DNA of 40,313 nt from Candidatus Peribacteria bacterium. Its GTDB lineage: Bacteria > Patescibacteriota > Gracilibacteria > Peribacterales > Peribacteraceae. Location: NCBI GenBank assembly GCA_028286915.1, contig JAQBQQ010000021.1:1-40313 (forward strand). Direction: 5' to 3'. The translations under genes and the position numbers were made by a program. The number at the start of each line of letters is the position of its first letter. The stretch's first letter is position 1. Below are positions 546 through 18,378 of the stretch, in pieces. Under the pieces are notes generated by a model that was not told where the DNA came from, did no database searches, and worked only from the letters and a program-made list of their open reading frames with translations.

Positions 546-1367
546 TCAAGACGTACTGCGGGCAAGAACAGCCGCCGCAATCCCGGCCCCCTGCCTCACC
601 TCCGCCACATCGTGCGTACGGATATAGGTGGCCCCGTGAAGAACGGCAATGGCGGATGCGGCAATGGTGCCGGGCAAACGGCCGGCCACTGGTATATTTT
701 CCGCTCCCGCGATAAACGATTTTCGGGACGGACTCAGCAGCAGCGGACAGCCGAGTGACAGAAATTCTTTCAGCCGCGCCAGAATTTCAAAAGAATAGGC
801 AGCGTCAGCTGATACAAAATGGCCCAAGCCCGGGTCCAGAATAATTCGTGACGGATGAATGCCGGCACTCATGGCGGCCGCTTTGCGCTCAGCCAAGAAA
901 TCCAGAACAGTTTCAACGACGTCGTCATACTGTCTTTCTTCGCGTGTCGTTCGCGGCGTTTTATCTTTGGCGTACATGAGGACAATAGATGCTTTCGCAT
1001 CCGCAACAACGGAAAACATTTTCGGGTCCGCCCTGCCTGCCGTCACATCATTAATGAGAGACGCCCCACTTTTGATGGCCTCGGCCGCCACCTGGCTTTT
1101 GTGGGTATCCACGCTGATGACGACCTGCGGATACACCATGCGAATAGCCATCACAACGGGAATAACGCGCTGCATTTCCTCCAGCACAAACACATCCGCC
1201 GAGCCCGGCCCGGTGGATTCACCGCCTACTTCAATAATATCCGCCCCCTGTCCGATCATCTCCTCCACGCGTGCCATGGCTGCTTCCGGGTTCAGGTACC
1301 GCCCGCCATCGTGGTAGGAATCGGGCGTGACATTCAGAATGCCGATGATGTTCGTAGTACGTATCAT
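546..1367 (-). CDS. folP: Dihydropteroate synthase
   Basis: IIGILNVTPDSYHDGG, GADIIEVGGESTGPGS, SVDTHKSQVA, INDVTAG, ILDPGLGH, SPSRKSFI motifs. Confidence 0.95.
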   Translation of the reverse strand: MIRTTNIIGILNVTPDSYHDGGRYLNPEAAMARVEEMIGQGADIIEVGGESTGPGSADVFVLEEMQRVIPVVMAIRMVYPQVVISVDTHKSQVAAEAIKSGASLINDVTAGRADPKMFSVVADAKASIVLMYAKDKTPRTTREERQYDDVVETVLDFLAERKAAAMSAGIHPSRIILDPGLGHFVSADAAYSFEILARLKEFLSLGCPLLLSPSRKSFIAGAENIPVAGRLPGTIAASAIAVLHGATYIRTHDVAEVRQGAGIAAAVLARSTS

Positions 1368-1445
1368 GTAGTACGTAATAAGAAATAAATTTTTGCCACA
1401 TACTACGTACTACGTACTACTTACTACTTATTACGTACTACTTTA

Positions 1446-1637
1446 TTAAATCTGCATTCCCTCTTCCGGCTCCTCTGCGTGCACTATTCCATCATCTTCA
1501 TCTTTTTCGCATTCACAGGCGTCTTCAAATGTGACGCGGTCTTCGCAGCCGGGAGTGCAATTGTTACCACCGCATTCCTCGCAGGAAACAATTTCGGCAC
1601 CGCATGCGCCGCAGGTAAGTGTATCGTCCATAATCAA
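1446..1637 (-). CDS. Small acidic Cys-rich (zinc-ribbon-like) protein
   Basis: CGACGAEIVSCEECGGNNCTPGC followed by an acidic tail. Confidence 0.6.
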   Translation of the reverse strand: MIMDDTLTCGACGAEIVSCEECGGNNCTPGCEDRVTFEDACECEKDEDDGIVHAEEPEEGMQI

Positions 1638-1702
1638 AAATAGAAGAGAAGTAGATGGGCATTGTGCGACGCGAAAGGCTGGAGCTCAAGAGGATTTTGC
1701 CA

Positions 1703-1760
1703 TAAAAATATTTCCACCCCACAGAGCGCCCATACTTGGGCGCGGTGTACATCGATATTC
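1703..1760. repeat. Dispersed palindromic element, copy 1
   Basis: aaaatatttccaccccacagagcgcccatacttgggcgcggtgtacatcgatat aligns to the 6771-6820 copy. Confidence 0.75.
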
Positions 1761-1879
1761 CATACAATCGCAGCGGCTTGAGAACCGCCGCTACGGAATC
1801 GAACATATCACCCACTGCCATAGTTCGTAGTTCGACAAATGTAATATAGCAACTAATTTTCCCAACCCTAACCCCAACC

Positions 1880-3544
1880 CTAACCCTTCTTCGTCCACGC
1901 CTTCTCTATATATTCCTGCACGGCACGATTGCTGTTGAAGTATCCCATCAGTCCAATGGCCCGCTTCATGCGATGGATCCACCTCTTGCGCTCCGGGTAC
2001 GTGTATTCGGGAATTACCTGATACTGCAGCTGGGTGTATAAATCTTCGGCATCCACATCGCGCGTATCGTTATCATCCAGCGCCTGCGCCAGCGGCCCGA
2101 TTCTCCAGCCGGATTGCGGATCTTTTTCGTAACCTTCTATCCACCAGCCGTCCAGCATGGACAGGTTGAGCACGCCGTTCAAACAGGCTTTCATACCGGA
2201 CGTACCGGACGCTTCATGCAAACGCGTTGGCGTATTCAGCCAGACATCGGCACCGGCTACCAGTACTTTTGCCAGGTCCGGATTGTAATTCGGAATGTAT
2301 ACAATGCGCACGCAGTCACGGAGTTCTTCGCTGCGCTCGATCATGCGGCGGATGACATCCTGTGAAAACTGGTCATACGGGTGCGCGTTACCGGCGTGAA
2401 TAATCTGTAATTTACCGCAACCGATTTCTTTGAGACGGCGCAGGTTGGTATAAATAAGCTCGGGTCGCTTATAGGGAACAACGCGGCGCGCACTGGCGAT
2501 AGTGAGTGTCTCCAGGTCAAACTCAATATCGGTATGATCCTTCACTTTTTTGAGCAGCTCCCACTTATTATCGTAGTGCGCTTCCCACAGTTCATCGTCC
2601 GGAATATCGCGGCAATGCAGGGCAAGCAATGATGGATTCTCGCGCCAGCCCTTAATATACGTATCAAACAATGCCTTTACAGGTTCCGACGTCCACTCGG
2701 TGTGATGCACGCCGTTGGTAATGTATTTGATATTCGGATTATTCAGAATGTTCTGCGACACCTGGCCATGGACGCGGGAGACGCCAAACGTATCGCGGCT
2801 CATGGTCATGGCCAGCTGCGTCATGGACAGCGCATCCTGTCCGGCAATATCTTTTATGTGCCACGGCAGCATGTCGCCGACCATTTTATATGCAAGGTCG
2901 TAGCCGAATACATCGTGACCGGCTTTCACCGGCGTGTGCGTGGTAAACGAACAGGATTGCCGCACATCATCATCCTTAAAATTCCGTTCACGCAAAAGTT
3001 CCAGCGTAAGAAAAGCACAATGCCCTTCATTCATATGGTACGTGCCAATGTCGTTGTAGCCGAGCGCGCGCAACATGCGCACGCCGCCAATGCCCAGAAT
3101 AATTTCCTGGCTGATACGCATGGTGCCATCGCCGCCGTAAAGAATTTTTGTTAAGTCGCGGTGTTCGGGGGAATTTTCGGGCAGGTTCGTATCCAGAAAA
3201 ATAACCGGCACCGTGTGTTCACCATGTTTCATGTCCAGCTTCCAGCCGCCAATGGTGACTGTCTTTCCCTCCACTTCCACCGTCACGCGTTCGGTGAGCG
3301 GTGTTAATTCATCTGCCGGGTTCCACTTGGTCTGCGAATATTCCTGCGTACCATTGGCATGTAACTCCTGATGAAAGTACCCGAACTGCCAGGCAACCGT
3401 GACGCACGCGGCGTTCACATCCATATCGCGGCACGACCGCATAATATCGGCGGCCAAAATACCCAAGCCACCGGCATAAGTGGGAATGGAACTTTTGAAA
3501 CCGATTTCCATAGTGAAGTACGCGACGGTGAGGGGTTGGGTCAT
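1880..3544 (-). CDS. glgP: Short alpha-glucan (glycogen) phosphorylase family protein
   Basis: YFTMEIGFKSSIPTYAGGLGILAAD; YHMNEGHCAFL; PLP-site motif EASGTSGMKACLNGVLNLSMLDGWW. Confidence 0.92.
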   Translation of the reverse strand: MTQPLTVAYFTMEIGFKSSIPTYAGGLGILAADIMRSCRDMDVNAACVTVAWQFGYFHQELHANGTQEYSQTKWNPADELTPLTERVTVEVEGKTVTIGGWKLDMKHGEHTVPVIFLDTNLPENSPEHRDLTKILYGGDGTMRISQEIILGIGGVRMLRALGYNDIGTYHMNEGHCAFLTLELLRERNFKDDDVRQSCSFTTHTPVKAGHDVFGYDLAYKMVGDMLPWHIKDIAGQDALSMTQLAMTMSRDTFGVSRVHGQVSQNILNNPNIKYITNGVHHTEWTSEPVKALFDTYIKGWRENPSLLALHCRDIPDDELWEAHYDNKWELLKKVKDHTDIEFDLETLTIASARRVVPYKRPELIYTNLRRLKEIGCGKLQIIHAGNAHPYDQFSQDVIRRMIERSEELRDCVRIVYIPNYNPDLAKVLVAGADVWLNTPTRLHEASGTSGMKACLNGVLNLSMLDGWWIEGYEKDPQSGWRIGPLAQALDDNDTRDVDAEDLYTQLQYQVIPEYTYPERKRWIHRMKRAIGLMGYFNSNRAVQEYIEKAWTKKG

Positions 3545-3732
3545 AGAAAGGAGAATATCATATTATTATAGCATAATTTTTATACTTACGGGAGGCCTTT
3601 TTAATGCCAACAGGCATCTTGTCCGAACGTACTGTATGCATCTTCCAAGGCATTTTGCGATTATTCGCTGTAAAAGATAGATGACGGCGGGAGCCATACC
3701 GATTACTCTCTTAACATCTTCCTCTTTTGATT

Positions 3733-5109
3733 ATGGCTGATATTGACCCCCGCATCTTCCGCGCTTACGACATCCGCGGCAAAGCGCACTTACAACTCAC
3801 GTCCGAAGCCTGCAACCTTATCGGCCAGGCCTTTGGCGGTGTCGTTACAGAGCGAACCACCGATGAATTCGCCAGCGTGGTAGTAGGCCGCGACGCGCGC
3901 ACGCACAGCCCGGAATTTATGAATGCCGCCATTGCAGGACTTGTTGCCGCCGGTTGCCGCGTGCTAAACATGGGACAGACGCCGAGCCCGCTCAACTACT
4001 TTACCATCTGCACACGGAATCTGGACGGCGGCGTGCAAATTACAGCCAGCCACAACCCTGCCGAAGACAATGGCATCAAGCTGCAAACCAAACATGCCGA
4101 AGCCTACGCCGGCGAAGATTTGCAGCAACTGCGCAAGCAAATCGAAGCGAATGATGTAAAAACCGGTAACGGCTGGGAGGAACATATTGATGCCATTACG
4201 CCGTACACAGAATATCTCACGAATGTTTTTGGCGGCATCGGCATTGGCAAAACCATTGTGGTGGATGGCGGCAACGGCGTGGCAGGCCCGCTGTATTGCG
4301 ACGTGCTGCGCAAAGTCGGCTGCAAAGTAGTGGAACTGTACATAGAACCCGATGGCACCTTCCCCAACCATGCCGCCGACCCGAGCAAGTGGGAAACACT
4401 CGCCGATTTACAGAAATCGACAAAAGAGCTTGGCGCTCATGCCGGCTTTGCGCTTGATGGTGACGGCGACCGATTCGGTATGGTAGATGAAACGGGCACC
4501 ATTCGCACGGCGGATGAAATTCTGCTGCTTCTTGCCAAAGATCACTTAAGCCGCAACCCGGGTGCGCCGGTTATTTTTACCGTTAGCAATTCCGGCACGC
4601 TGCAGACGGAAATAACCAAATGGGGCGGCAGGCCGGTCATGTGCAAAGTGGGTCACTCATTTGTAGAACACGCCATGCGCGAAAACAACGCCCTGCTCGG
4701 CGGCGAACAATCCGGCCACTTCTTCTGCGGCGAAGATTACTTTTCGTTCGATGACGCACTGGTGGGCGTGCTGCGTGTGCTGAGTATTATGAAGAAGGAA
4801 TCCGTTTCAAGCCTCATGAAAGATTTTCCCAAAGTCTACCAGGCACAGGAACGCCGGCCGCATTGTGCCGATGATGTAAAAGCGCAGGTTATACAAAAAA
4901 TCCGCGATCATTTTGCGGCAACATACCCGGTAGTAGACCTGGACGGCGCCCGCATAGATTTTGGCGACGGTGCCTGGGCGGGAATTCGCATGAGCAATAC
5001 CAGCCCGTGCCTGTCAGTATGCCTGGAAGCCAGAAGCCCGGAGAAATTGGCGGAAATAGAAAAGCTGGTACTGGAGCATTTGGGGACGTATGAGGAGATT
5101 GAAATGTGA
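3733..5109 (+). CDS. Phosphomannomutase/phosphoglucomutase
   Basis: FRAYDIRG, TASHNPAEDNGIK phosphoserine loop, DGDGDRFG metal loop, GGEQSGH sugar loop. Confidence 0.95.
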   Translation: MADIDPRIFRAYDIRGKAHLQLTSEACNLIGQAFGGVVTERTTDEFASVVVGRDARTHSPEFMNAAIAGLVAAGCRVLNMGQTPSPLNYFTICTRNLDGGVQITASHNPAEDNGIKLQTKHAEAYAGEDLQQLRKQIEANDVKTGNGWEEHIDAITPYTEYLTNVFGGIGIGKTIVVDGGNGVAGPLYCDVLRKVGCKVVELYIEPDGTFPNHAADPSKWETLADLQKSTKELGAHAGFALDGDGDRFGMVDETGTIRTADEILLLLAKDHLSRNPGAPVIFTVSNSGTLQTEITKWGGRPVMCKVGHSFVEHAMRENNALLGGEQSGHFFCGEDYFSFDDALVGVLRVLSIMKKESVSSLMKDFPKVYQAQERRPHCADDVKAQVIQKIRDHFAATYPVVDLDGARIDFGDGAWAGIRMSNTSPCLSVCLEARSPEKLAEIEKLVLEHLGTYEEIEM

Positions 5110-5395: not shown

Positions 5396-5424
5396 GTTCG
5401 CTTTTGCTTGAGTTGCCAAAAATT

Positions 5425-5456
5425 CACCCAAACAGAGCGCCCGTACCCGGGCGCGG
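5425..5456. repeat. Dispersed palindromic element, partial copy 2
   Basis: caccca-aacagagcgcccgtacccgggcgcgg identical through the core to the 6787-6812 copy. Confidence 0.75.
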
Positions 5457-6756: not shown

Positions 6757-6815
6757 GGGCTGCTCTGCGGGTGGAAATATTTCCACCCGCAGAGCGCCCG
6801 TACCCGGGCGCGACA
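6757..6815. repeat. Long palindrome plus second hairpin (copy of dispersed CAGAGCGCCCGTACCCGGGCGCG element)
   Basis: 34-bp perfect palindrome at 6762-6795, extended with one bulge to 6757-6799, then GCGCCCG-TACC-CGGGCGC. Confidence 0.85.
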
Positions 6816-9081: not shown

Positions 9082-9708
9082 ATGGAGGCAATGACGCAAA
9101 CCGAGCCCAAACCCGGCAAATTGGTGTTAATTATCGGTCCGAGCGGTGTGGGGAAAAGTGTCATTCTGCTGCGCCTCAAGGAGCGTCACTCGGAATTACA
9201 TTTCCCGCGCAGCGCCACCACGCGGGCACGCCGGCCGCGCGAAGGAAACAGCCTGTATTGTTTTACAACCGATGATGAATTCGATGATCTCATAGCCCGG
9301 GAAAAATTACTGGAGTGGGCATACGTTCATGGCGGCGCCCGCTACGGCACGCTTGTTGATGAAATTATTCCATTTGTTCAGGATGGAAAAATCGTTATCC
9401 GCGAAGTGGATGTGCAGGGTTTCGACAGCATTCGTCATCATCACTTATTTGCCGGTGCCAACCCGCTCTTTGCGCTGCAGTCCATTTTCATTCTGCCGGA
9501 AAATGAAGAGCAGCTCATAAAACATATTACCAAGCGCGCACCGATAGCCAAAGAAGAATTGGAACGCCGTATGGACAGCATGCGGACAGAACTGGCTTAC
9601 GCGAATTTGTGTGACAGGCAGATTATTAATAAAGAAGGAAAAATTGATGACACGTACAGACAGGTGGAAGGATTAATTTTTGATGAGACGAAGATCCCAA
9701 AAATATGA
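9082..9708 (+). CDS. gmk: Guanylate kinase
   Basis: LVLIIGPSGVGKSVILLRL, RSATTRARRPREG, EWAYVHGGARYGT, REVDVQG. Confidence 0.93.
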   Translation: MEAMTQTEPKPGKLVLIIGPSGVGKSVILLRLKERHSELHFPRSATTRARRPREGNSLYCFTTDDEFDDLIAREKLLEWAYVHGGARYGTLVDEIIPFVQDGKIVIREVDVQGFDSIRHHHLFAGANPLFALQSIFILPENEEQLIKHITKRAPIAKEELERRMDSMRTELAYANLCDRQIINKEGKIDDTYRQVEGLIFDETKIPKI

Positions 9709-9960
9709 AATACCAAATAAGCCCCACATAAAACCCAAAGTTTTACAGTAAGTACATTTAAAAGCGCTTTTCCATTCGCCGGACGTTATGTGGCGCTTCA
9801 TCAGCCTTTGTCCGCCAGGGCGACTGCACCAAACGAATTCTTCTTGGGATTTTTTCTTCATGACATAAACTTCTATTCACACAAAGCATTCTCTTTGCCT
9901 CCGGAAAAAAGCTCTCGTACATTACACCGAGTATTCTCTTTTTATTCTTTCTTTTTTTGT

Positions 9961-11121
9961 ATGCATTCTTCTTTTTCGCGCGGCACCGCAGCTCTGGCTG
10001 CCGGTATTGCCGTTCTTTCTTTATCCGTGACATCCATGGCCTTTGCCGAAGACGGTGGAACATCTTCCAGCGTGTCTTCTTCCGCAGCTGCTACATGTAA
10101 AACAGCAATGGACACCATCCGCAGTACAACGACAGATGGAACAGATGCCCGCAAAGCCGCTATTACCGAATGGCTGAAAGTATGTCAGTCCGGCCTGCCG
10201 CCTATGCGCATGCCGCCACCGACAGATAAGCCAACTGCACCAACGCAGCCAATGGCTCTGCCAAGCTGTGATGATATGTTGAAGTATCTTACGAACATGA
10301 AGGACAGCGGCAAAACCGGTGAAGATTTTACGCGCGGCATGAAGGCGTACCAGGAAAGGTGTATTAATATTACAAGCGGCGATTCCTCTTCCTCATCTGG
10401 TCCCGCGCCAACCACTCCTTCGTTTAACGGCGACCCTTGTACGTACGTACAAAAAATTATAGACCAGCTTACTGCTTCTCTGGCTAAAGAACCGGGTTCC
10501 AAAGGCCTGCAAAGCCAGCTGGATCTGGCGCAGAAAAAACTGGCCACCTGCGGCACGCAAACAACAGGCGGCAACTCAAAGAAGGAAGATCGCCCAAGGC
10601 CGATGAATACCGCGGGCACGGACGACACGAATATGAGTGATACCAAAAAGCCTATGCCGCCTATGGCCGGCAACTGTGATCAGCTAAAGAGAATATATGA
10701 AGAATTGTCCGCAAAAATGGCAACCGAAACAACCGATACCATGACCAAGCGCATGACCGAACTAAAAAGTAAAATGGCACGCTGCGCTGCCGGTCCAGAT
10801 GCCTCGCAGGCAAATCAGGCTACTTCCGATAACGCCGTAAGCGTTGCCTGCACCAAGAAGGGGGCACTGATTACCTGCGACGATGGTTTTGTCCTGGACT
10901 TGCGGAAAATGATGCGCCCGATGCCTGCCCAGAATCAAAATGATTCCACCAGCTCCATGCCGGCCACCGACATGCCTGCTACGGAAGTATCACCTGCTGA
11001 TATGACCGTTACACCTGCCACGGGTGATGCCACCAAAACAGACGACAGCAATGCGCCCGGCTCACGGCAGAAAGGAAAGTTTCTAAAAAAAGTATCCGGT
11101 CGACCGCCAAGAAATCGTTAA
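9961..11121 (+). CDS. Secreted low-complexity Met/Pro/Thr/Ser-rich protein
   Basis: Signal peptide MHSSFSRGTAALAAGIAVLSLSVTSMAFAED at an internal start; repeated C-x-MLKYL.. helical segments. Confidence 0.75.
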   Translation: MHSSFSRGTAALAAGIAVLSLSVTSMAFAEDGGTSSSVSSSAAATCKTAMDTIRSTTTDGTDARKAAITEWLKVCQSGLPPMRMPPPTDKPTAPTQPMALPSCDDMLKYLTNMKDSGKTGEDFTRGMKAYQERCINITSGDSSSSSGPAPTTPSFNGDPCTYVQKIIDQLTASLAKEPGSKGLQSQLDLAQKKLATCGTQTTGGNSKKEDRPRPMNTAGTDDTNMSDTKKPMPPMAGNCDQLKRIYEELSAKMATETTDTMTKRMTELKSKMARCAAGPDASQANQATSDNAVSVACTKKGALITCDDGFVLDLRKMMRPMPAQNQNDSTSSMPATDMPATEVSPADMTVTPATGDATKTDDSNAPGSRQKGKFLKKVSGRPPRNR

Positions 11122-11137
11122 ATCAGTAGTAACTATA
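11035..11137. repeat. Direct repeat A, copy 1 (3' end of secreted-protein gene)
   Basis: About 103 bp, near identical to 12006-12108. Confidence 0.9.
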
Positions 11138-11138
11138 C

Positions 11139-11168
11139 AAACGGCATGCCGGAAGGTGTGCCGTTTTT
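11139..11168 (+). terminator. Terminator of the 9961-11121 gene
   Basis: AAACGGCA...TGCCGTTTTT. Confidence 0.65.
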
Positions 11169-11180
11169 GAGTTCATAATA

Positions 11181-11216
11181 AAAGCCCGGCTATTCCTTGT
11201 GGGAATGCCGGGCTTT
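11181..11216 (-). terminator. Terminator of the NUDIX gene
   Basis: AAAGCCCGGCtATTCC-ttgtg-GGAATGCCGGGCTTT. Confidence 0.7.
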
Positions 11217-11234
11217 CTTCACATCGCGGGAGCC

Positions 11235-11873
11235 TTACTTGGGCTCCATCTTCCCTGTGGGGGAATACGGGTCCAGGCGCGGGTACTTCTTCTGCCCTTC
11301 GACGGTCTCGTCGATGAGGAAGCATCCGTCGTCGGAAACGAACACACCTTCGATGGGCAGATACTCCTCCGGCGCCTCATTGGGACCCAAGATGGGATCT
11401 TCCAGAAGCGAGAGGCCGTCCCAGACCATGCGGCCCGTTCGTCCGAGTCGGTCGGTGGGGCCAACGAGAGTGAGCGGCACATCCTGGAAGCCGGTTGTCA
11501 TACTAATGCCATCGACATACTCCTTGTGCCGGACCCTAAAGAACCCCTGCTTAAGCTCCGTGGCATTCGCATACCAATGCTGCTTCGCCTCCGAAGTGGA
11601 GACGAGCTGGCCACCGATGACTCGACAAGCATAGGCCACAGCCGTGTCATCATTGAAGACGTGCGGCGGGCCGACCTGTTCCAGCACTTCGATTTCGAGG
11701 CCGGTTTCTTCCCAAACTTCTCGAGCGAGTGCGTCATGGTCAGACTCGCCCTCCTCCACCCGACCACCGGGCAGATTCCATCCCTTCCCATCCTGCCGCT
11801 CCGAGACGAGAACGCTCCTCTTAGCCAGGATAAGCGCGAACACGCCACGGGTCTTCTTCGGTGCATCAGACAT
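11235..11873 (-). CDS. NUDIX hydrolase
   Basis: GGRVEEGESDHDALAREVWEETGLEIEVLE NUDIX box; internal start MSDAPKKTRGVFALIL preceded by AAGGAGAAGG. Confidence 0.92.
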   Translation of the reverse strand: MSDAPKKTRGVFALILAKRSVLVSERQDGKGWNLPGGRVEEGESDHDALAREVWEETGLEIEVLEQVGPPHVFNDDTAVAYACRVIGGQLVSTSEAKQHWYANATELKQGFFRVRHKEYVDGISMTTGFQDVPLTLVGPTDRLGRTGRMVWDGLSLLEDPILGPNEAPEEYLPIEGVFVSDDGCFLIDETVEGQKKYPRLDPYSPTGKMEPK

Positions 11874-11969
11874 GATCCTTCTCCTTGCCCTTGATGTGAA
11901 GTCTTCCCATTGCCAATGCAATGGCAATTAAGATATTACTATAATAATATATCTTTGTCCAGTATTCTC

Positions 11970-12004
11970 AAAACCGTCTCTCCATAACCAACTGCTCACT
12001 CTCC
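11970..12004. repeat. Direct repeat B, copy 1 (fragment of GNAT gene 3' end)
   Basis: aaaaccgtctctccataaccaactgctcactc also at 13136-13170. Confidence 0.9.
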
Positions 12005-12005
12005 T

Positions 12006-12108
12006 AAAACAGACGACAGCAATGCACCCGGCTCACGGCAGAAAGGAAAGTTGGTAAAAAAAGTATCCGGCCGGCCGACAAGAAATCGTTAAATCAGTAG
12101 TAATTATA
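12006..12108. repeat. Direct repeat A, copy 2
   Basis: acagacgacagcaatgcacccggctcacggcagaaaggaaagtt...agaaatcgttaaatcagtagtaattata. Confidence 0.9.
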
Positions 12109-12128
12109 AAAAAAATTATGCAAAAAAA

Positions 12129-12155
12129 GACCCGCGCGTTTGGAACGCGCGGGTC
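12129..12155 (-). terminator. Terminator of the orphan gene at 12172
   Basis: GACCCGCGCG-tttggaa-CGCGCGGGTC, minus strand followed by TTTTTTTG. Confidence 0.8.
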
Positions 12156-12171
12156 GGACAGCTCTTAGACA

Positions 12172-13044
12172 TTAACCGAGACGAGACTTGCGAATACGAT
12201 TCACCGTACCCGCAACTTCCCGCATGAAAGTTTCGATTGGCAGATCCGGAGCCGCATGCCCGAACGTCTCCACGGTATGACCATGGGATTCGAGCAGCAT
12301 CCAGAACGCTTCATCCTGGGCCATGCCGTATGGCGCGCCGGAAGACAGGAGATGATGGCCGGGCGTCGGATTGCCCTGGAGCCATTCAAGAATAGTATCC
12401 TCAGTCGAAGGCCGAACTGGTGAATCGCCTTCTTTCAAGGGCGGCTTCATGGGAGCATCGACGAAGGTGACGGGGATCGCTCGCAATTCCTGGTCGAACG
12501 GAGCAAGGTGCCACAGCGCTTCCATCATCTGCAGCTCAGTCTGGAGATCTCGATCATAATGCCTATCCGCCTCATCAGCAGTCACTTCGCAATCAAAGAC
12601 TTCTTCGACGAGCGAGATCATGGCATTAGGACTTTCTCTATCCTTCAGAAGTGGCCGTTTGCCGCCATGGACCACCGTCTGGTTCCATCGGACGCCGCTC
12701 TTCCAGACGGTATTGAGATCCTTGAGCCGTGCCAAGGCACGGGGCAGGAGTGCTCCCGGCCAATCGGCGTACTCGGCGGCCCAGCAGCGCGGGATGCTGC
12801 AGTCGATAAAGCCGCAGAGCCGGAGGTGAAGCCGGATGCGGTCAGCCGGACACATGACTGCGCTGGCCTCAAGCTCCCATCGCTCGAGTGGCTTGCCGTC
12901 GGGCCCTTTCTGGAAGAAGCGGGCCTGGAGCGCGGCGTCGATACTGATGAGATCATTGCCAGGAACTTGCACGTCCCGCAGGAACTGTGCGAAAGCCTTG
13001 GTCGGACCATTATCGGTTGTAAAGAGCAAAGTGGAGCGACGCAT
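12172..13044 (-). CDS. Hypothetical protein (orphan cassette gene)
   Basis: 290-aa ORF with RBS-like AGAGG upstream, promoter-like TTGACT...TTAATAAT, strong terminator. Confidence 0.75.
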   Translation of the reverse strand: MRRSTLLFTTDNGPTKAFAQFLRDVQVPGNDLISIDAALQARFFQKGPDGKPLERWELEASAVMCPADRIRLHLRLCGFIDCSIPRCWAAEYADWPGALLPRALARLKDLNTVWKSGVRWNQTVVHGGKRPLLKDRESPNAMISLVEEVFDCEVTADEADRHYDRDLQTELQMMEALWHLAPFDQELRAIPVTFVDAPMKPPLKEGDSPVRPSTEDTILEWLQGNPTPGHHLLSSGAPYGMAQDEAFWMLLESHGHTVETFGHAAPDLPIETFMREVAGTVNRIRKSRLG

Positions 13045-13133
13045 CGGAGACCTCTTTCTTGCTGTGAAGTATCTGAAACAAAAGAACCACTAACTACCAT
13101 TATTAACTAATAACTTAATTTAGTCAATGCATC

Positions 13134-13655
13134 TTAAAACCGTCTCTCCATAACCAACTGCTCACTCCCCTGCCCTGTTCGGTCCGGATTTATAGACTTT
13201 TCAGTAACTACAAACCCGGTTTTCACATACGCCTTCTGCGCCCGCTCGTGAACGGCGTTAACCAGCAGCCAGACACAAGGCACATGCAATATATCTCGCG
13301 CGTACTCAGTCATCAGTTGCACCGCTTCCGTTCCGTAACCTTTTCCCCATTCTTCCTTTTCGCCTATAAGTAAACCAACCTCCACGCCTTCCCTGTGTGC
13401 ATGCCTGGGCTTGGGATTTTTCATGTGAATACCGCAACTGCCAATTGGCTGCGCAGTTTTATGGAGCACGATAGTAAACTGAACCAGATTCGGGTCTGCC
13501 AATGCTGTCTCCAGCCAGATTTTTTCTTCTTCATACGTAAACGTACGGTTCACAACATGCCGCATCACCTCTTCATCCGCCGCCCACTTGGCCATCAGCG
13601 GCAAATCATCCATGGTGGAAAGCCGGAGCATGATATGTAATCCCGTACATTCCAT
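13134..13655 (-). CDS. GNAT N-acetyltransferase (RimJ/RimL-like)
   Basis: GSCGIHMKNPKPRHAHREGVEVGLLIGEKEEWGKGYGTEAVQLMTEYA. Confidence 0.88.
   Translation of the reverse strand: MECTGLHIMLRLSTMDDLPLMAKWAADEEVMRHVVNRTFTYEEEKIWLETALADPNLVQFTIVLHKTAQPIGSCGIHMKNPKPRHAHREGVEVGLLIGEKEEWGKGYGTEAVQLMTEYARDILHVPCVWLLVNAVHERAQKAYVKTGFVVTEKSINPDRTGQGSEQLVMERRF
13136..13170. repeat. Direct repeat B, copy 2 (3' end of intact GNAT gene)
   Basis: Same sequence as 11970-12004. Confidence 0.9.
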
Positions 13656-13737
13656 ATTAATAGTGTGGCTTTATTTTTTGCTTTGTCCAATCATAGACAG
13701 GTGCCGTAACCGTCTTATGGGTATTCCCTCCTTTCCC

Positions 13738-14040
13738 ATGCCAAACCTGCACTTCACTATTCCGCATCCGCTTTCGGAGCAAGAAGCACTTACGCGCATT
13801 AAAAGTTTGCTGGAAGAATTAAAAAAAGAATTTGGCGGCAAGATGACAAACCTGCAAGAAAAATGGCAGGGCAATACCGATGCCTTCAGTTTTACGGTTA
13901 TGGGTTTTGATGTGTCGGGCACGCTGATTGTTCGTGACAAAGAAGTGGAGCTACAAGGTTCTCTGCCTTTGGCGGCGCTGCCGTTTAAAGGGAAGATTGA
14001 AGAAACCATACGGAAAGAGGCGCAGAAAGTATTGAAATAA
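13738..14040 (+). CDS. PHA granule-associated-like (PHA_gran_rgn type) small protein
   Basis: MPNLHFTIPHPLSEQEALTRIKSLLEELKKEFGGKMTNLQEKWQGN..FSFTVMGFDVSGTLIVRDKEVELQGSLPLAALPFKGKIEETI. Confidence 0.75.
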   Translation: MPNLHFTIPHPLSEQEALTRIKSLLEELKKEFGGKMTNLQEKWQGNTDAFSFTVMGFDVSGTLIVRDKEVELQGSLPLAALPFKGKIEETIRKEAQKVLK

Positions 14041-14150
14041 ATTAAATAGTTAGAGCTATATGCAGTTTATAAGTCTATTTTAGCCATAAATATGAATTTG
14101 CTTTTTTATTAAAATGTGATATTTTATGTAAAGTAACCGCTTAAACACTC

Positions 14151-14687
14151 ATGTTTCCCTCTCTCAATTGGCATCGGCAGTCGCGCAAGCAAGCTTCTCC
14201 TGCAGAAGAAATAGCTGCACCCGTGCAAAAGAAAAGCAATCCTGTTGCCGGTTTTTGCAGCGGAATCAAGAAAAGCATCAGCAGTCTATTTGGAGCCAAA
14301 GCTCTGGAGACCGCACCTGCACCTGCCTACCCAACGCAATTAATTTCGATTCCTCTCACCCGTACATACGCAGGTGAGGTAAAAATAACGAACCCCGTGC
14401 CTGTGCCTGCATCAATACGGATGTCACATTCCGTTACGCCAACATTTAAGCCTAAAGTGCCTTATCAGTATAAGACAGAGGATCCTTCTCCAGACGAAGA
14501 ATCTGCCTATACTATCAGAATCCAAAAGCCACATATTGTCTCTCTTGAGGAATCTAAAGATAACAATGGATATACAATGAATATCATTGCCGCCCGTAAA
14601 GCGAGTGCTATTTCTATTAACCAAAAAGCAGAAATCGAAGCACTTGCGTCTGATACAGCACGACAAATATGGCGTATTGCTGCTTAA
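14151..14687 (+). CDS. Hypothetical protein
   Basis: Complete 178-aa ORF with no strong competitor. Confidence 0.55.
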   Translation: MFPSLNWHRQSRKQASPAEEIAAPVQKKSNPVAGFCSGIKKSISSLFGAKALETAPAPAYPTQLISIPLTRTYAGEVKITNPVPVPASIRMSHSVTPTFKPKVPYQYKTEDPSPDEESAYTIRIQKPHIVSLEESKDNNGYTMNIIAARKASAISINQKAEIEALASDTARQIWRIAA

Positions 14688-14854
14688 GTCAGCTCATAAA
14701 AGAAAAAGGACCAAAACTATTTAACATAGTAGTATGATTTAGGGTTTGCTGCGTTTATACAAAAAAGAACCTTCTTCGCGAAAGCGTCATTCTATTTGAA
14801 TTTGACATTATATATGTAATGTGTCACTTTATGTTTAATCATGCGCCAGTTGGA

Positions 14855-14894
14855 GGATTCATTCCTTGAGCTGCGTGTGCAGCTCATTGAATCC
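14855..14894 (+). promoter_or_regulatory. 5' leader hairpin of the 14954 gene
   Basis: GGATTCA ttcctt GAGCTGC gtgt GCAGCTC at TGAATCC: two nested 7-bp stems. Confidence 0.6.
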
Positions 14895-14953
14895 AGCGGC
14901 ATTTACAGTAATCTCGCAACTAACAGCCATGATGCAACCCGAGGAACTCAACG

Positions 14954-16288
14954 ATGAGCACTTTTCTCCGACGACGCAACATCGTGATCCGATCCGAAGG
15001 CCTCGAGAAGCGCGAAGTGCTTAGCACTCTGCCTCTCGCCCCGGCCATCCCGGCTCCAATGGATGTTGTGACCACGAAAGGCCACAGCGTCACGGATGTC
15101 AACCCGTACTCCATCAGCACGTCAAACCTGTCCGCCGACGGCAGCGGCTCGTCGCATTCGTGGTATACCAATACCATGACCACGACCGGGCACGAAGAAG
15201 TGAAGAAAGACGGCCCCAGCGGAACTGGCGTCACCACAACCGACACCAAGGAAACGCTGAAGGCCACGGACAACGTGGTCACCACCGCCGATATCAGCGG
15301 CAACCTGAAAACGGTGGAGAAGCAGACCCTGTCGGACCTGATGACCACGATCATCACCGGCAACTCCACCGACCCGGATGGCACCGTGCACGTCTCCAAG
15401 GAGACTGACACAACTGTTACCACCGGCGATTCCACTGATACGTGGAATACCTACGCCGACGGATCCGGCGACCACACCGGCATCGCGAACTCGAAAACCG
15501 TCTATACGACGGTCATCGACACTACCGACACGCACAGCGATGGCGAGGTGTATACGTACCACGGCACCTCCACCAGAACTGAAAGTTCGGTGACTACCAG
15601 CGAGGGCCAGAACGACGCGACCGGCAATTTCTTTGCCATGGTGGACACCGCGTCTACCAGCAAGGCCAGCAGCACCGACGAGTACGGCAGCGACAACCTC
15701 AAGGGCATCACGTCAAAAGAGACTTACGTGAATATGTCGAGTGCCACCAGCGATGACACGATCATCGACGGCAGCGACGAGATCGGCACTTACCATCTGG
15801 ACTTTTACGGCATGAGCGGCAAGAACGCGCTCGTGTACACGTTCTCGTCCACCACGCCCACGTCCAACTCCAGCGGAGTCGAGACGACAATCGACACCTT
15901 CAGCGTCAACACCGAAGATGATATCTTCGGCAACGCCGACGGAAGCACCGACGAATACCATTCGTACAACTATATCGGCCACACAGTGGCCGACAGGATC
16001 TCCAAAGTCGCCACGGTTCCCGGCTCGGATGATGGCGGCGGGTACTATGACACCTATGCCGTCACCACGGCCAGCCCGGTACTGGCAGCTGCCAGCACCC
16101 CCAGCGTCAACAGCCTGCAGAAGACCGCGACACCAGTCATCGTGACCGGCTCGCTTAACCCGACATCCTATGCGGCCACGCCGCAGGCGCTCGCCTTCGA
16201 CAGTGTCGCCTTTAACCCGTTCGACATGCCCATCATCAACCTGTCCACGCTGATGAACAGAAGAAAGAAGGTCAAAGTTCTGAGTTAA
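14954..16288 (+). CDS. Thr/Ser/Asp-rich repetitive surface protein with planctomycete-like N-terminus
   Basis: N-term RSEGLEKREVLSTLPLAPAIPAP (LExRxxLS-like); TTTDTKET/DTTDTHS-like low complexity. Confidence 0.75.
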   Translation: MSTFLRRRNIVIRSEGLEKREVLSTLPLAPAIPAPMDVVTTKGHSVTDVNPYSISTSNLSADGSGSSHSWYTNTMTTTGHEEVKKDGPSGTGVTTTDTKETLKATDNVVTTADISGNLKTVEKQTLSDLMTTIITGNSTDPDGTVHVSKETDTTVTTGDSTDTWNTYADGSGDHTGIANSKTVYTTVIDTTDTHSDGEVYTYHGTSTRTESSVTTSEGQNDATGNFFAMVDTASTSKASSTDEYGSDNLKGITSKETYVNMSSATSDDTIIDGSDEIGTYHLDFYGMSGKNALVYTFSSTTPTSNSSGVETTIDTFSVNTEDDIFGNADGSTDEYHSYNYIGHTVADRISKVATVPGSDDGGGYYDTYAVTTASPVLAAASTPSVNSLQKTATPVIVTGSLNPTSYAATPQALAFDSVAFNPFDMPIINLSTLMNRRKKVKVLS

Positions 16289-16317
16289 TACTGTGAATGC
16301 CGCCACCAATAAGCGGC

Positions 16318-16352
16318 AGCGCCTATCTCCACCCGGGGATAGGCGCTTTTTT
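16318..16352 (+). terminator. Terminator of the 14954 gene
   Basis: AGCGCCTATC-tccacccggg-GATAGGCGCTTTTTT. Confidence 0.85.
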
Positions 16353-16571
16353 GTATATGCAAAAAAGCAATTTTCTTCTCGAGCTCTAAGAAAACAGCAA
16401 CTAAAAGACATTATTTGCTCTGAAGATCAAGAGCTCCTTGTGAAGAGAAAAAATCCGATCTCAACATTTCCCGAAATCGCCTTAAGTACAAAGATTCTTT
16501 CTGAAACTGTATTTTTATCTTGCTATATTGATAGTGGTGGAGATGAGGGAATGAGTTTCAAACTTTTCTAT

Positions 16572-17318
16572 CTAAAGATTGAACATGAGCTTTAAGCCAA
16601 GCACCATTCCAACAATTGCAAACATGGTCTTAATGAATTTGTTTCCTTTTCCTTTTGCAAAAGCAGAACCGATATAATTTCCTGCAATGGAACCGACGAT
16701 CCCTGAAACCATCAGTGGAATGTCATGAATGCCATACTTAAAAAGTAAAACGGCAGCAAACAACGTCCAGAAGAACGCGATGATATAGTAATGCCCAAGA
16801 GCGTCGATAAAGTCGAAGCCGCGCGTTTTCATCGAAACTATTGCGAATAATATTCCATTTGCCGAGCCTAAGATGCTTTCATAGAAACCTAGCAGGAGGG
16901 CAAAGGGATATGCGGCGATGCGGTGCTTAATTGAAATAGTCAGTTTTTCTTTTAGCCCCAACTCTTTTTGGAATGAGATATAAGCAACTACGAGCAGAAT
17001 GAGGATCCCGACAAATACTTTCAACAATCTTTCATTAATTTCTGTTATAGCTAGTACTCCTAGATATGCACCGAACAATCCAATTCCTGTAAATAAAAGA
17101 AGAAACTTCCAGTCTATAGAACGGTTCTTCAGATAGTTATATGCGGCAGGAGGCGCGCCGAAGACACCACCGACTTTCATAATGACCGATGCCTGTGGGA
17201 AAGAGAGCCCGAGTGAAAGAAAAATCGGGAGTATCAATACTGAAGATCCGCCACCAGCCATAGAGCTGAAGAGCGTTCCGACGAAAGTTGTGATGAAAAC
17301 AATGATGATTGTTAGCAT
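16572..17318 (-). CDS. TauE/SafE (TSUP) family permease
   Basis: FVGTLFSSMAGGGSSVLILPIFLSLGLSFPQA, multi-TM, GSIAGNYIGS. Confidence 0.88.
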   Translation of the reverse strand: MLTIIIVFITTFVGTLFSSMAGGGSSVLILPIFLSLGLSFPQASVIMKVGGVFGAPPAAYNYLKNRSIDWKFLLLFTGIGLFGAYLGVLAITEINERLLKVFVGILILLVVAYISFQKELGLKEKLTISIKHRIAAYPFALLLGFYESILGSANGILFAIVSMKTRGFDFIDALGHYYIIAFFWTLFAAVLLFKYGIHDIPLMVSGIVGSIAGNYIGSAFAKGKGNKFIKTMFAIVGMVLGLKLMFNL

Positions 17319-17357
17319 GCAGTAAAGTTACAGGAAAGGCTGGAATCATGACATGAC

Positions 17358-17516
17358 TTAATACAATCGCGTCCCATCATCATCAATCTTGATCATATTC
17401 GGACCATCAAGTGGTTCCTGTTCTTGAATCTCTTTCATGAGTAACAGAAGGCCAATCGCATTTGTGAAATCATAGTTCTTCCATTCCGCAGGGAGCTTGT
17501 CTCTAAAGTCGTCCAT
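17358..17516 (-). CDS. Small hypothetical protein (52 aa, below ORF-track cut-off)
   Basis: MDDFRDKLPAEWKNYDFTNAIGLLLLMKEIQEQEPLDGPNMIKIDDDGTRLY*. Confidence 0.4.
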   Translation of the reverse strand: MDDFRDKLPAEWKNYDFTNAIGLLLLMKEIQEQEPLDGPNMIKIDDDGTRLY

Positions 17517-17661
17517 AGTGGGCAAACCGTTGCTCTCTAGTGCAAAGATTGCAACTTAATGGACTGGACTGAAGTTCGAATCCCTTCAGCTCGAGCTGTT
17601 CCTCTTCGAACCGACTTTTGATCTTCCTATAAACAAAAATTCGGTGTTGTGTCATATTCGT

Positions 17662-17738
17662 TGGTGGAGATGAGGGGACTTGAACCCCTGACCCCTTGCA
17701 TGCCATGCAAGTGCTCTAGCCAACTGAGCTACATCCCC
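17662..17738 (-). tRNA. tRNA-Ala(GGC), CCA encoded
   Basis: GGGGATG/CATCTCC acceptor, anticodon arm CTTGC-ATGGCAT-GCAAG, GTTCAAGTC T-loop. Confidence 0.95.
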
Positions 17739-17831
17739 AGGCCGCTACGCGGAAATTCTAAATTCCAAGCATCAAATTCTAAATTGGTTCTTGATTTTTA
17801 GAATTTGGAATTTCTCTGTAAAACAGAGTTA

Positions 17832-17909
17832 TGGTGCACCTGGCAGGATTTGAACCTACGACTTCCAGATCCGCAATCTGGCGTTCTATCCGGGCTGAAC
17901 TACAGGTGC
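17832..17909 (-). tRNA. tRNA-Arg(GCG), CCA encoded
   Basis: GCACCTG/CAGGTGC acceptor, anticodon arm CCAGA-TTGCGGA-TCTGG, GGTTCAAATCC T-arm. Confidence 0.95.
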
Positions 17910-17957
17910 AATATAATAAAGAAAAAGAACAACTGAATGATAATTATGCACTTCTCG

Positions 17958-17987
17958 CCCACCGAAGCTCAAGAGAGCGAAGGCGGG
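17958..17987. repeat. Small hairpin element H2
   Basis: CCCACC GAA GCTC aaga GAGC GAA GGCGGG. Confidence 0.75.
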
Positions 17988-18080
17988 AACTACAGGTGCA
18001 ATATAATAAAGAAAAAGAACAACTATGCGCACTTTACAGAGAAAGCTTCAACTTCTACATATAAAAGGAGAGCTGAACTC

Positions 18081-18112
18081 TTGTCGGCCGTAGCCAAAAG
18101 GCGAAGGCTGGA
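18081..18112. repeat. Small hairpin element H3
   Basis: ttgtcgGCC GTA GCC aaaa GGC GAA GGCtgga. Confidence 0.75.
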
Positions 18113-18378
18113 CAGGTGCAATATAATAAAGAAAAAGAACAGTACTGAGGCACGAACGCCTTCGACAATAAGCTGTGCTCCATTTGAAGCTGGGAAACGG
18201 TAGCATTGAGCGGAACAGAAAACAAATCTTCTAAATATATTCAGATGTTTTTTCCTTTATTTATGTATAAAAAATTTGATCACCATGTAATCTTTGCGAT
18301 AAATGTACGTCTTATAACTGATTTAATTTTATACTTATTCTGGCTCTTTTCCATAAACGGCAATAAATACACCATAAT

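Follow-up and report, generated by a model that had tools for sequence, protein, structure and literature searches.

The window, that is, the whole stretch of DNA that was analysed (40,313 bp), is one complete contig (C37) of a Candidatus Peribacteria genome of 1.43 Mb in 48 contigs; the genomes of the relatives' family range from 0.7 to 2.1 Mb. The structure described here lies in a variable gap (9709-17661) between gmk (9082-9708) and the tRNA-Ala and tRNA-Arg genes (17662-17909). In this gap, a secreted-protein gene on the plus strand (9961-11121, 386 aa, an open reading frame) and a GNAT acetyltransferase gene on the minus strand (13134-13655, 173 aa; PF13302, 7.3e-24) are convergent. The secreted protein has no Pfam match, and no homologue of its gene was found in 74 genomes of the family, the fragment A2 described below being the only other copy.

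The 3' ends of both genes occur twice. A1 (11035-11141, plus strand) is the 3' end of the secreted-protein gene and comprises its last 28 codons and stop, plus about 20 bp, while A2 (12006-12112, plus strand) is a diverged copy of this end (KTDDSNAPGSRQKGKLVKKVSGRPTRNR, then the stop). Similarly, B2 (13132-13171) is the 3' end of the intact GNAT gene, covering about its last 12 codons, and B1 (11966-12005) is a copy of it with the stop TGA instead of TAA. An earlier note on this DNA had placed both pairs correctly; A is slightly longer than proposed there (107 bp instead of 103 bp) and B measures 40 bp instead of about 35 bp, with one base differing between the copies within the 35-bp core. 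The A copies are identical at 99 of 107 positions (93%, E 4e-39) and the B copies at 38 of 40 (95%, E 7e-11), which corresponds to differences of 7.5% (8/107) and 5% (2/40). At E <= 0.001, no further copy of A or B was found in the genome. A terminator-like hairpin of the secreted-protein gene, read by eye (ACGGCA..TGCCGTTTTT, 11141-11168, plus strand), follows A1 and is absent after A2.

As also claimed earlier, B1 (..CTCACTCTCCT) directly adjoins A2 (AAAACAGACG..), without a spacer, at 12005/12006. The break falls where B1 stops after ..CTCYCCT and A2 starts with AAAACAG.., and the microhomology at the junction is 0-2 bp, or up to 3 bp if one base differs between the alleles. Folded as single-stranded DNA, the junction gave 0 kcal/mol and no hairpin, and neither A nor B showed inverted repeats at its borders. 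Within the coding part, six codons separate A2 from A1; three of the changes are synonymous and three nonsynonymous (conservative), giving pS 0.145 and pN 0.047 on small numbers; the stop codon is retained in A2 and, as TGA, in B1. Judging from these changes, A2 resembles a coding allele of the end of the secreted-protein gene that has diverged, and the pattern would fit two alleles from related strains, each under coding constraint until the two met; with six changed codons, the numbers are too small to prove coding evolution.

In agreement with the earlier description, the two intervals between A and B hold different genes, both on the minus strand and each equipped with a promoter and a terminator of its own. 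Between A1 and B1 lies cargo X (11235-11873, 212 aa), a NUDIX hydrolase (PF00293, 8.7e-16) that presumably hydrolyses a nucleotide-type substrate, with a promoter-like site (TGGACA-17-TAATAT, 11933-11961, minus strand) and a terminator-like hairpin read by eye (11181-11217). Between A2 and B2 lies cargo Y (12172-13044, 290 aa), an orphan with a promoter-like site (TTGACT-17-AATAAT, 13099-13127, minus strand) and a strong terminator (12129-12155, minus strand). Both promoter-like sites are located beside B. The two proteins show no relatedness to each other, as had been proposed. Y has no match in Pfam, PHROG or NCBIfam and none in phages and viral contigs; its predicted fold is of low confidence (pLDDT 65), and the PDB matches were not significant.

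X and Y have a foreign look. Good homologues of X (43-56%) occur in 4 of the 74 family genomes, all at unrelated loci. Outside the family, two further families of the phylum have full-length homologues of Y (59% and 57%); the 74 family genomes contain none, with a single match of 71 residues. Furthermore, the GC3 values of X and Y fall in the 97th and 91st percentiles of 235 sampled genes of the genome, those of the flanking genes being ordinary. Since both genes are patchy in distribution and unusually GC-rich, they were most likely acquired by transfer. The left border of X lies beyond the terminator of the secreted-protein gene and that of Y about 20 bp after its stop; as the left insertion points differ, X and Y would be two separate insertions. 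Both right borders lie at the GNAT stop codon, and X and Y start at equal distance from it.

The regions upstream of X and Y were also compared. X carries the leader motif ACTTCACATCAAG (11890-11902, minus strand) and Y the leader motif ACTTCACAGCAAG (13058-13070, minus strand), and ACTTCACA[T/G]CAAG precedes the start of both, in the same register relative to B. The two promoter-leaders align in this register, sharing ACTTCACANCAAG (shuffle p 0.0026). Common descent of the two leaders was rejected, as other leaders of the family reach equally high scores (30 for X paired with the G005 NUDIX leader, against 11). The same motif also precedes clpC-like and lemA-like genes (named by eye), and the same layout is seen ahead of NUDIX homologues located at other loci and of further family genes. 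Being no more alike than unrelated family leaders, the leaders of X and Y are therefore not a common cassette end; they are a common leader type of the lineage. Nothing at or near the gathering score was found in Rfam. This recurrent leader consists of a TTGACA promoter and an AT-rich spacer, in many cases followed by a small hairpin, then TTCACA, which mostly lies 48-57 nt beyond the -35 box and often continues as TTCACANCATCGG, and a ribosome site; it precedes accessory genes and was also seen at L032, L033, L034, L064, L076, L090 and L108.

The gap between gmk and tRNA-Ala/tRNA-Arg was compared across 14 genomes of the family. The order asparaginase, gmk, gap, tRNA-Ala/tRNA-Arg and window genes 19535, 20253 and 20702 is kept in the relatives, with gmk inverted in some. 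The gap ranges from about 10 bp (G028) through 0.5 kb (G022), 0.6 kb (G029) and 1-3 kb in most others to 4.7 kb (G012) and 8 kb in the present genome. One gene of the gap, identified by eye as PurE-like, sits close to the tRNAs; otherwise hardly any of its genes is common between genera. With conserved flanks and contents that differ among the 14 genomes, the gap is a turnover spot. The earlier note had suggested looking at the junction in relatives: their gaps do hold other genes, and none of those examined holds a frame like the present one. In one of them (L126), repeats were seen, but inside a long repetitive gene. A scan of the genome contigs found no close relative, and the genomes covered included neither a strain with just one of the two alleles proposed below nor an empty A-B junction. 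In the window, the 5' end of tRNA-Arg(gcg), together with 25 bp upstream, is accompanied by two further copies upstream (17897-18148), spaced 90 and 120 bp apart, and a similar set lies upstream of tRNA-Arg(gcg) in the relative G023 (L126, 3942-4229). A 38-nt intergenic element around CAGAGCGCCCGTACCCGGGCGCG occurs in three copies in the window (1707-1744, 5418-5455 and 6775-6812).

Other duplicated frames, whose presence the earlier note had raised, were sought in the sampled half of the genome (about 52%, taken as stretches), and three inserts with repeats of 30-48 bp were found. At L079 (contig C46), a 38-bp direct repeat (37/38; 10407-10444 and 11554-11591) frames one low-GC minus-strand gene of 333 aa, which has its own promoter-like site, convergent neighbours and no family above the cut-off. 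At L142 (contig C6), a direct repeat of about 48 bp with an identical core of at least 32 nt (2518-2565 and 4232-4282) frames two ORFs in a low-GC stretch of 1.7 kb. At L062 (contig C5), an array-like run of low-GC single genes (547-3743) lies beside a tRNA-Gly-like gene; a 231-bp repeat (2669-2898 and 4362-4592) accompanies it, and a hairpin repeat of about 30 bp, GGAGCTCC(A/C)TATGGGAGCTTATTCGGAAC, is located at or near the 3' ends of the genes (547, 1280, 2258, 2893 and 3713). A further copy of the hairpin repeat, near 1590, is degenerate. This run is integron-like in layout, shows no attC consensus by eye, and its hairpin repeat does not occur elsewhere in the sample. L050 was rejected as a second frame of the A..B kind, being plain tandem paralogues, and the frames at L075, L071 and L141 were ordinary, with IS200/RAYT-like genes or hairpin repeats. 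Y1-transposase-like genes are present elsewhere in the genome.

We consider it barely better than an even bet that the structure arose by fusion of two alternative alleles, with different cargo, of a single variable locus. One strain would have carried X between the convergent secreted-protein and GNAT genes, and a related strain, about 5-7% diverged, would have carried Y. A single illegitimate join of B to A' would then have fused secreted-A-X-B to A'-Y-B'-GNAT, giving A-X-B/A'-Y-B', with the X allele broken off 35-40 bp into GNAT and joined there to the start of the Y allele, which lies 87 bp short of where the secreted-protein gene ends. One new junction would thus account for all four repeats, and the A and B copies have diverged by like amounts, which fits two strain alleles. 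We infer this two-strain origin and, likewise, the direction and enzymatic route of the exchange. Most likely, a linear fragment with one allele would have been taken up, with homologous exchange on one side and the illegitimate join on the other, the whole being one step; the homologous side would be GNAT if Y came in and the secreted-protein gene if X came in. ComEC is present in the genome, over the Pfam cut-off; this Pfam family also gives matches in 10 of the 14 control genomes, which makes it a weakly specific sign. Alternatively, a small circle A'-Y-B' might have recombined through A or B with an identical product, and to this extent the circular intermediate of the earlier note would serve. 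Some observations weigh against the fusion of alleles: X and Y start at equal distance from the GNAT stop, which independent insertions need not give, and the junction has 0-2 bp of microhomology and no visible deletion, in contrast to typical one-sided products.

An alternative that we hold to be unlikely keeps everything within one lineage, where A-X-B would have been duplicated in tandem by the illegitimate join of B to A and the cargo of one copy later replaced by Y (or X) through recombination in its flanks. Tandem duplication is common, would leave an identical junction and would agree with the A and B copies having diverged alike. Nevertheless, it calls for two events, and a donor A'-Y-B' is needed anyway; moreover, a free A2 fragment would not be expected to retain coding-like changes, and the difference between the X and Y promoter regions is far greater than that between the copies of A or of B.

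An assembly chimera, in which the strain variants A-X-B and A'-Y-B' were set in series in the draft, is quite unlikely. The genome is a 48-contig draft, probably a metagenome bin, and a mix of two strains would yield exactly such alleles. Against this, the copies of A share no exact word longer than 26 bp, those of B none longer than 32 bp, and the junction offers 0-2 bp, leaving no overlap for a join, and the 739 kb sampled contain zero N.

The earlier note had read the locus as a cassette-capture system without an integrase in view, and its description of two acquired one-gene units in a shared frame, whose junction requires a recombination step, remains sound; the dedicated capture system is not supported. 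That one-gene circles were inserted serially by a dedicated or host recombinase, to give A-X-B-A-Y-B, appears improbable to us. The low-GC single-gene inserts framed by direct repeats of 30-48 bp at L079 (10407-11591) and L142 (2518-4282), as well as the array-like run at L062, speak for it. Equally doubtful is the broader form, in which the lineage would repeatedly gain single genes at a few spots, integrase-free, every unit bringing 30-110 bp copies of the local flanks, with units piling up as A-X-B-A-Y-B and L079, L142 and L062 as further products. The genome has one match to PF00589 (C21, 19350-19880), whose best match is of XerD/XerC type, and models of the integron integrase stayed below the cut-off in the genome; the view of the locus as free of a dedicated integrase is borne out, and a capture system is left with this sole XerC/XerD-type recombinase. 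In addition, the junction of B1 and A2 has no hairpin, A and B are gene ends and not sites, and the relatives' gaps carry other genes and no such frame. In most comparisons, no motif common to A, B and the repeats of the other frames was found beyond chance; the lowest p values (0.007 and 0.037), both with the L062 hairpin repeat, do not stand out in a set of 30 tests. A2 and B1 look like diverged alleles of the neighbouring genes and point to two strain versions recombining, not to serial capture at a dedicated site. Finally, that X and Y are old neighbours, with A2 and B1 as scraps from an unrelated later duplication of the flanks between them (the outcome that the earlier note had named as refuting its reading), is very improbable: nothing was found in its favour, their distributions are separate and patchy, they occur together in no other of the 74 family and 379 phylum genomes searched, and one event less simply places both scraps in the right order.

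If the fusion of two alleles is correct, the structure would preserve an intermediate stage of gene turnover, frozen at a hot spot of a bacterial group with small genomes. It suggests that competing cargo alleles can persist as neighbours following one illegitimate join and with no mobile-element machinery. Should additional strains carry further A-Z-B units, integrase-free cassette accumulation would become directly testable. As it stands, the locus is a record of gene swapping rather than clear evidence for a new cassette machine.

Integron gene-cassette arrays and CALIN, the integrase-less clusters of attC sites, consist of serial single-gene units with repeats between them. The present locus resembles them in having single-gene units in series with a repeated sequence between. 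Unlike them, it lies in a genome without an integron integrase, its junction lacks an attC-like hairpin, its repeats are the ends of two neighbouring genes, and its cargo genes each retain a promoter and a terminator. Known integration hot spots lie next to tRNA genes or are variable loci between conserved genes. Like these, the present gap has a conserved frame (gmk and tRNA-Ala/Arg) and contents that differ per relative; it differs in the lack of a mobile-element integrase in the gap, the single-gene cargo and the unusual tandem frame of alleles. Unlike units moved by IS200/IS605 or RAYT elements, the A/B units have no hairpin or inverted-repeat ends at their borders.

Another close comparison is with homology-facilitated illegitimate recombination (HFIR), an integration that is homologous on one side and illegitimate on the other and that is established during natural transformation in three naturally competent species, S. 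pneumoniae, A. baylyi and P. stutzeri (PMC3240628). Its products usually show 3-10 bp of microhomology (in most, not all, cases) and a deletion (PMC3240628). Natural competence is also known in the Saccharibacteria (PMC10633639). In contrast to HFIR products, the present junction has 0-2 bp and not 3-10 bp, no deletion is seen, and the experimental observations of HFIR come from other lineages. As in HFIR, there would be one homologous end and one illegitimate end, with about 1 kb of new DNA per step; one junction lacks homology, and the remainder is consistent with homologous exchange. Most likely, the locus adds one more case to a kind of event that is already known and is not a new system.
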